Shown here piece after piece: positions 14,197 through 16,008 of a stretch of DNA of 35,194 nt; position 1 is the first letter of the stretch; each line of letters starts with the position of its first letter. The notes under the pieces are model-generated. The model did no database searches. It was not told where the DNA came from and saw only the letters and a program-made list of their open reading frames with translations. Made by a program: the position numbers and the translations under genes. This DNA comes from an uncultured archaeon (GTDB lineage Archaea; EX4484-52; LFW-46): NCBI GenBank assembly GCA_902384675.1, contig CABMCT010000011.1, positions 1-35,194 of the forward strand, given 5' to 3'.

Positions 14197-14310
14197 AGCC
14201 CTGGGCGCGAAATCCCCGCGCGAATCATGTTTTAAATAATGAAACGCGCGATTTGAACGCACGACCTTTACCTTACCAAGGTAACGCTCCACCAGCTGAG
14301 CTACCAGGGC
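14197..14310 (-). tRNA. tRNA-Thr(GGU) interrupted in the T-arm at 59/60; exon1 14252-14310, insert 14211-14251 (41 nt), exon2 14197-14210
   Basis: Minus strand GCCCUGG-UA-GCUC-AGCUGGUG-GAGC-G-UUACC-UUGGUAA-GGUAA-AGGUC-GUGCG-UUCAAA|[41 nt]|U-CGCGC-CCAGGGC-U. Acceptor, D, anticodon and T stems pair when the insert is removed; 73-nt mature length. Confidence 0.88.
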
Positions 14311-15489: not shown

Positions 15490-15692
15490 ATATTCAACCG
15501 CACATCTTTTGATTATCAAGGATATTGCGCGGTTGAATATTTCCAACCATTTCAAAGCTTCGCTTTGAAAGCTTGCCGTAAGGCATGATTGATAATCGTC
15601 TTCGGGTTGGAAAGCTTGGAAATCTTCGATTTCCATGAGATAGCGAATTCAAGCATTAATAGAGGATACCTATAAAAAGTTCTTGAATCCGC
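15490..15692 (+). repeat. Family X element, copy 1 (stem A 15490-15501/15529-15540; Y-type insert 15540-15613; stem E 15643-15653/15682-15692)
   Basis: ATATTCAACCGC/GCGGTTGAATAT 12-bp perfect stem, followed by GCGAATTCAAG/CTTGAATCCGC (10 of 11 paired); sequence words shared with copies at 24033 and 27709. Confidence 0.72.
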
Positions 15693-15843
15693 TATAATAT
15701 CAGTTGGCCAATGCAGGGGTAGCCAAGCGGTCAACGGCGGTGGACTCAAGCAACAACTCGATTGCATTGAGTTATGAGCCGGCAACGGCGATGAAATAAA
15801 GAAATCCACTCTCCTAGCGAGTTCGAGGGTTCAAATCCGGTTT

Positions 15844-15868
15844 CTTTCTCTTTTGGAAAAAGAGAAAG
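15844..15868. repeat. Hairpin inside tRNA-Leu insert 2: CTTTCTCTTTT-gga-AAAAGAGAAAG
   Basis: 11-bp perfect inverted repeat. Confidence 0.7.
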
Positions 15869-15876
15869 ACAAGTCA

Positions 15877-15894
15877 TTCCAACTGCGGTTGGAA
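15877..15894. repeat. Family Y palindrome inside tRNA-Leu insert 2: TTCCAAC-TGCG-GTTGGAA
   Basis: 7-bp perfect stem; GGTTGGAAAGCTT (15887-15899) is identical to 15605-15617. Confidence 0.7.
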
Positions 15895-15897
15895 AGC

Positions 15898-15918
15898 TTT
15901 TGAAGCAAAGCTTCAAAA
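15898..15918. repeat. Hairpin inside tRNA-Leu insert 2: TTTTGAAGC-AAA-GCTTCAAAA
   Basis: 9-bp perfect inverted repeat; CAAAGCTTC also occurs at 15553-15561. Confidence 0.7.
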
Positions 15919-16008
15919 TCCGGGTAGAAAGAGAAAACGAGTGGCCGCGCTTCGCGAGGTCACAAAACTACCTAACGCCGGTAAAAATCCCTTCCCCTGC
16001 ATGCTATT

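Follow-up and report, generated by a model that had tools for sequence, protein, structure and literature searches.

Rickettsia palindromic elements are small hairpin-rich repeats that are tolerated inside protein genes, with no bulge-helix-bulge (BHB) removal. The repeat reported here, which probably forms the body of a set of archaeal tRNA introns, is similar by description in being small, hairpin-rich and situated within genes, and differs by description in that the genes encode tRNAs and BHB removal is predicted. It is not settled how tRNA introns spread in archaea, and the repeat suggests how new ones may arise and spread. In the Thermoproteales, similar introns occur in different tRNAs and are described as transposed (Fujishima et al. 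2010, as cited in PMC4033280 and PMC4090602); reviews call the mechanism of tRNA intron transposition unknown (PMC4090602). As far as those accounts describe the Thermoproteales introns, the present ones share with them the occurrence of similar introns in different tRNA species, and are set apart by their host, a Nanohaloarchaeota-like DPANN order, by an intron body that is found also outside tRNAs and in reversed orientation, and by a triplex-type layout. A class II purine-motif intrastrand triplex layout has been described for the bacterial BoxC/PIT/TM repeats (PMC4666352).

The window, the whole stretch of 35,194 nt that was analysed, belongs to a genome that is 89% complete (G000). It was compared with one congener (G001) and with a sample of the phylum comprising 34 genomes. 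The window encodes archaeal DP2, a family B DNA polymerase, EF1A, TruD and a Nop-domain protein. Among named relatives, the DP2 comes nearest to those of Nanohaloarchaea/DPANN metagenome-assembled genomes, with identities of about 55-66% across aligned segments, and the lineage is therefore described as Nanohaloarchaeota-like.

A preliminary description had read part of the window as a tRNA-Leu(CAA) gene with two inserts, and the sequence confirms that reading. Split parts reassemble, as claimed, into an 84-nt class II tRNA-Leu with all stems, from exons of 38, 32 and 14 nt (Table 1). The acceptor strand GCAGGGG (15713-15719) pairs with CCCCTGC (15994-16000), and the T-stem GAGGG/CCCTT forms five of five pairs. 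Insert 1, of 53 nt, lies in the anticodon loop at 37/38, and insert 2, of 152 nt, in the T-loop at 59/60; the bounds of both can be read from the sequence and agree with the earlier account. The forecast that a standard scan would miss the gene also held, the gene being overlooked by ARAGORN and by Rfam at the gathering threshold. A blastn search of the genome, at its 89% completeness, returned no second Leu(CAA) gene, and the exon pairing is kept in relatives, whose orthologues have the same exons. The 289-nt stretch folds more stably than 200 of 200 shuffles (z = -4.8). Across the window, Rfam at the gathering threshold gave tRNA matches only, with none to a group I intron model. Since standard scans miss such tRNAs, related genomes may wrongly seem to have incomplete tRNA complements.

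Table 1. Coordinates of the tRNA-Leu(CAA) gene, its two inserts and a further intron-bearing tRNA gene, counted from the first letter of the window.
Feature	Position	Strand	Basis
tRNA-Thr(GGU), T-loop interrupted by a short intron of 41 nt, 14211-14251; repeat at this site in the congener	14197..14310	-	
tRNA-Leu(CAA) exon 1, acceptor 5' strand to position 37	15713..15750	+	sequence; orthologues in relatives
Anticodon CAA of tRNA-Leu	15747-15749	+	
Insert 1, intron at 37/38, probable C/D-type guide for C34	15751..15803	+	
Guide base G15769 of insert 1, opposite C34	15769	+	
D'-like box ATGA of insert 1	15774-15777	+	
C'-like box GCGATGA of insert 1	15788-15794	+	
tRNA-Leu exon 2, positions 38 to 59, ends GAGGG-UUCAAA	15804..15835	+	sequence
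Insert 2, T-loop intron at 59/60, probably built on the dispersed repeat	15836..15987	+	BHB; family matches
P1 5' strand, pairs with 15977-15981	15837..15841	+	MFE fold
Y/R1 hairpin, 12-bp pyrimidine/purine stem	15843..15869	+	
Conserved linker GACAAGTC (family GACAARTC)	15868..15875	+	alignment with other copies
Nested module AT-hairpin-AAGCTT-hairpin-AAT	15876..15919	+	alignment with other copies
P3 5' strand CCGGGTAG, conserved	15920..15927	+	
R2 purine tract AGAAAGAGAAAA, mirror image of R1	15926..15937	+	
P4 terminal hairpin	15941..15963	+	fold
P3 3' strand CTACCT	15968..15973	+	fold
P1 3' strand GCCGG, central-helix partner UAAA (15982-15985), first two bulge bases AA	15977..15987	+	
tRNA-Leu exon 3: U60, T-stem 3' strand, acceptor 3' strand, discriminator	15988..16001	+	sequence

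A blast search with the locus found relatives of insert 2 at many other sites in the host genome and in the congener. Among 27 copies of the repeat, 20 reside in tRNA genes and seven follow a TAA stop codon directly. With hairpin echoes on the other strand excluded, a covariance model built on the core identifies 15 distinct loci in the host genome and 12 in the congener. The 20 tRNA copies comprise 16 in the T-loop in forward orientation, two in the T-loop reversed, and two in the anticodon loop. Forward T-loop copies occur in both genomes in Pro(GGG), Pro(CGG), Ala(CGC) and Asp(GUC). To these the host genome adds Leu(CAA), Leu(CAG), a class II tRNA reading as Ser(GGA) (L060) and the tRNAs L054 and L058, and the congener adds Thr(GGU), Leu(GAG) and Ile(GAU). 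In both genomes the T-loop intron of Ser(GCU) holds the repeat in reversed orientation, and the anticodon-loop copies are in Ser(CGA) of the host and Ser(UGA) of the congener. With anticodons assigned by eye from the sequence, the repeat occupies about ten different predicted tRNA genes per genome.

The repeat is restricted to the genus: at E<=0.001 the covariance model finds it in none of the other 32 phylum genomes, and thus in 2 of 34. Weak matches in relatives, with E values of 0.003-0.1, disappear at that cutoff and were rejected as signs of presence in other archaea. A search of GTDB r220 contigs, among which near relatives may not be included, gave no exact match to the core pattern. 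A viral origin was likewise set aside, as the only IMG/VR match to the core pattern has no hairpin or other features of the element and reads as chance. We consider it likely, from the structure and from these family matches, that insert 2 represents one copy of a dispersed DNA repeat, specific to the genus, and that this copy makes up the body of a BHB intron.

The core of the repeat runs in the order 5'-CGGTTTC, pyrimidine/purine hairpin, GACAARTC, optional hairpin modules, P3 5' strand, mirror-image purine tract and terminal hairpin. P1 is predicted for most copies. For P3 (GGGTAG/CTACC), the mean number of pairs is 6.9 of 8 in T-loop copies, 5.75 in post-stop copies and 4.0 in anticodon-loop copies; its pairing specificity is only marginal by permutation (p = 0.05), and P3 is graded as likely rather than proven for that reason. 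The nested module is found at two different points of the repeat (window 15876-15919; L055, L067, L086, L145), with linkers that are constant and stems that vary from copy to copy. Hairpins joined by AAGCTT, of a design resembling the nested module, also lie just upstream of the tRNA-Leu gene at 15545-15640. Immediately behind many tRNA 3' ends stands a further array of several hairpins, hairpin-AGCCGAGAG-hairpin-GCGAACGGATTT-hairpin (in the host genome at L001, L003, L004, L005, L009-L012 and L019).

Splice signals were compared in 20 T-loop introns. All 20 have a T-stem with five of five pairs, 3-4 of 4 central pairs between T-loop UUCR (54-57) and the intron-terminal YGAA, and 3-nt bulges on both sides of this central helix. 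The cuts would fall after UUCRAA at the 5' end, and between the closing AA of the intron and U at the 3' end. Where position 57 is G, its partner is C in 3 of 3 introns, against 1 of 17 where position 57 is A (Fisher p = 0.0035). The copy in the window has 3/4 central pairs, with one mismatch, C56-A. The T-loop introns, in short, carry a predicted BHB of canonical form, with compensatory change at position 57, and splicing would therefore hide the insertion. The host genome encodes one PF01974 splicing endonuclease and one RtcB, and we infer that repeat-bearing tRNAs would be spliced in the cell.

The contrary reading, that these genes are disrupted pseudogenes which are never spliced, could appeal to the BHB mismatch of the window copy and to splicing being predicted here from the sequence. 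We judge it highly improbable: the T-stems are all intact, the BHB pairing shows compensatory change, and in searches of the host genome Leu(CAA) and Asp(GUC) turned up only in interrupted form, two odd tRNA-like matches aside. Those two (L015 and L007, at G000:C25:64113 and G000:C31:25927), of which one is partial to the model and one has an apparent AUC anticodon, are possibly foreign or misread.

The splicing endonuclease (G000:C65:25718-25999) and its homologues across the order have an insertion, GVNPYK...KEHTK, near the catalytic histidine, while the enzyme of G034, outside the order, lacks it. Pairwise alignments place residues at this insertion in the enzymes of N. equitans and ARMAN-2, and none in that of M. 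jannaschii. Broad specificity is reported for nanoarchaeal and ARMAN-2 splicing enzymes (PMC12397907); a role of the insertion in the endonuclease is only a suggestion.

Several sites are filled in one genome and empty, or differently filled, in the other. The tRNA-Leu(GAG) gene is empty in the host genome, reading GGGGGTTCAAATCCCC, and has a 160-nt insert at the same point in the congener, with matching flanks. The T-loop of tRNA-Ile(GAU) is likewise empty in the host and filled in the congener. Leu(CAA) has the repeat in the host versus a 33-nt T-loop intron in the congener, while Thr(GGU) has a 41-nt T-loop intron in the host versus the repeat in the congener. Post-stop copies are missing at the orthologues of S15 and HtpX in the congener and of TFB in the host. 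An empty site could mark the loss of a copy and not the state before insertion; gain is favoured because the repeat is restricted to the genus. Only two genomes carry it, and the number of independent events is small.

From these observations we tentatively propose that a triplex-folding mobile DNA repeat gives rise directly to new tRNA introns in archaea, inserting at T-loops and after stop codons and being spliced through an end complementary to the T-loop; we regard this as quite possible, if short of probable. On the reading of insert 2 judged likely above, copies would spread at the DNA level. A landing in a T-loop, or in the anticodon loop of a tRNA-Ser, would be tolerated, and the copy survive there, because the ends of the copy complete a BHB. 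In the T-loop, UUCR 54-57 of the tRNA would pair with the last YGAA of the intron across 3-nt bulges, after which the splicing endonuclease and RtcB ligase would excise the insert and restore the tRNA. One intron end would fit almost any tRNA, since UUCRA is nearly universal in tRNAs; T-loops, whose motif is common to nearly all tRNAs, are thus possible hot spots. A non-autonomous element derived from IS200/IS605 was considered as the mobile form and rejected, the ends of the repeat not flanking any Y1 transposase gene: IS200-like transposase genes are present in both genomes, and the repeat is missing from the flanks of the four Y1_Tnp loci, some of these flanks being truncated.

The distribution between the two genomes also bears on a reading without mobility, in which T-loop introns already old in the ancestor of the genus were homogenised in place by gene conversion and sometimes lost. 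Asp, Pro(GGG), Pro(CGG), Ala(CGC) and Ser(GCU) are filled in both genomes, the same site has different Y classes in the two, and short repeat-free T-loop introns are present in the order, all as homogenisation would have it. Against this stand the clean intron-free T-loops of Leu(GAG) and Ile(GAU) in the host genome, the post-stop copies with empty orthologues, and the absence of the repeat from the rest of the phylum. As the origin of the whole pattern we think this unlikely; gene conversion may account for part of it.

The proposed folding of the mobile repeat concerns three homopyrimidine or homopurine tracts whose register is maintained, as such a fold would require: a pyrimidine tract Y and two purine tracts, R1 and R2. 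Y falls into about five sequence classes among the copies, and in each class R1 is the antiparallel complement of Y, while R2 nearly mirrors R1. R2 matches the parallel complement of its own Y at a mean of 12.5 of 13, compared with controls of 10.1 of 13 for the antiparallel arrangement and 9.75 (9.8) for Y of other classes; the observed fit was reached by 2 of 120 class permutations, in a test that rests on about five Y classes. An alternative fold with R2 antiparallel to Y was rejected for its poorer fit (10.1 vs 12.5). The order is Y, R and a purine third tract with G-G-C and A-A-T triplets, and the second spacer is about 11 nt or longer, outside the 1-6 nt of the ITxF spacer criterion. As predicted from the sequence, the layout is that of a class II purine-motif intrastrand DNA triplex, into which single-stranded repeat DNA would fold.

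The layout resembles that of BoxC/PIT/TM repeats, in which a 5'-pyrimidine tract, a purine tract and a purine third tract likewise lie on one strand; those repeats too are dispersed, with a conserved core and no linked mobility gene (PMC4666352). In contrast to the G/C-rich BoxC/PIT/TM, the present repeat is A/T-rich, archaeal and found within tRNA introns, and its second spacer is about 11 nt or interrupted by a module. Purine-motif triplexes are stated not to form in RNA (PMC4666352); an RNA triplex was set aside on this ground, and for the same reason the layout is read as a property of the DNA, a reading with which the reversed Ser(GCU) copies agree.

Layout and orientation both weigh on the possibility that the spread took place at the RNA level, with an excised circular intron reverse-splicing into a T-loop, followed by reverse transcription and recombination. 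Such a route would fit the complete BHB ends of the T-loop copies, which match the universal T-loop, and also the Leu(GAG) and Ile(GAU) genes, whose filled and empty forms differ by one whole intron. We nevertheless consider it distinctly unlikely, in view of the reversed copies in both Ser(GCU) genes, the seven non-tRNA copies without the 3' closure of the intron, and the DNA-type triplex layout.

The copies outside tRNA genes, four in the host genome and three in the congener, all follow protein genes; in each of the seven cases the copy is in sense orientation and sits immediately behind a TAA stop. Of the 60 non-coding TAAT sites in the window, 9 are at stops, and at that background the chance of finding all seven copies there is about 2e-6. 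Random DNA insertion leaves this siting unexplained, and it is the main fact outside our proposal; it suggests that the repeat either prefers such targets or serves a function at the 3' ends of mRNAs. The latter would suit a reading in which the repeat is selected as a transcript element, serving 3'-end formation, termination or stability, and the tRNA introns are captured copies. Besides the post-TAA siting, the pyrimidine tract is like the U-rich terminator of archaea, and other hairpin arrays adjoin many tRNA genes downstream. This reading has a low probability in our estimation: orthologues in the congener do without the repeat, RNA reportedly does not form purine-motif triplexes (PMC4666352), and a terminator within a tRNA gene would do harm.

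On the proposed reading, spread of a mobile DNA repeat, the spread of tRNA introns can be followed directly because the introns have kin outside tRNAs, reversed copies, and syntenic tRNA genes that are filled in one genome and empty in the other. The literature surveyed, mostly outside subscription journals, has no report of such tRNA introns in Nanohaloarchaeota, and the DNA-repeat ancestry, the reversed copies and the post-stop copies appear to be new.

Insert 1, unlike insert 2, is probably older and functional. An intronic C/D guide is known from the tRNA-Trp intron, as in Haloferax (Clouet d'Orval 2001, as cited in PMC4090602 and PMC7994747), and in Pyrococcus a C/D sRNA serves the first anticodon position of Leu(CAA) (PMC7994747). 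Insert 1 comprises a guide complementary to the anticodon loop, a D'-like box, a short hairpin and, last, a C'-like box. The guide is so placed that C34 takes the fifth position counted upstream from the D'-like box, and families f2 and f7 have the same register. In the eight introns with a recognised box D' (families f1, f2 and f7), the N+5 rule leads to C34 every time, with 7-10 contiguous pairs between guide and target. A scan of 37/38 introns for the guide pattern did not find it in the congener, in the f7 genus g7 or in G010, and the pattern missed G018. Compared with the consensus CUGA/RUGAUGA, the boxes are exact in G027 (CTGA, GTGATGA) and degenerate in the host genome (ATGA, GCGATGA); box D' of the 37/38 intron is CUGA in family f7. 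The 3' splice motif of insert 1 in the host genome looks degenerate by eye. As far as the cited accounts describe the Haloferax tRNA-Trp intron, insert 1 shares its 37/38 site, its box motifs and the position of C34 at the fifth nucleotide from D', and differs in residing in tRNA-Leu(CAA) and in its degenerate D' (ATGA). Insert 1 probably guides, as a C/D-box RNA, the 2'-O-methylation of C34 in the tRNA that contains it; its greater age and function are judged probable because the register on C34 recurs among families and such guides are known (PMC7994747, PMC4090602). The Leu(CAA) genes of family f4 (L037, L039, L045) have no anticodon intron, and have an insert in the D-arm region instead.
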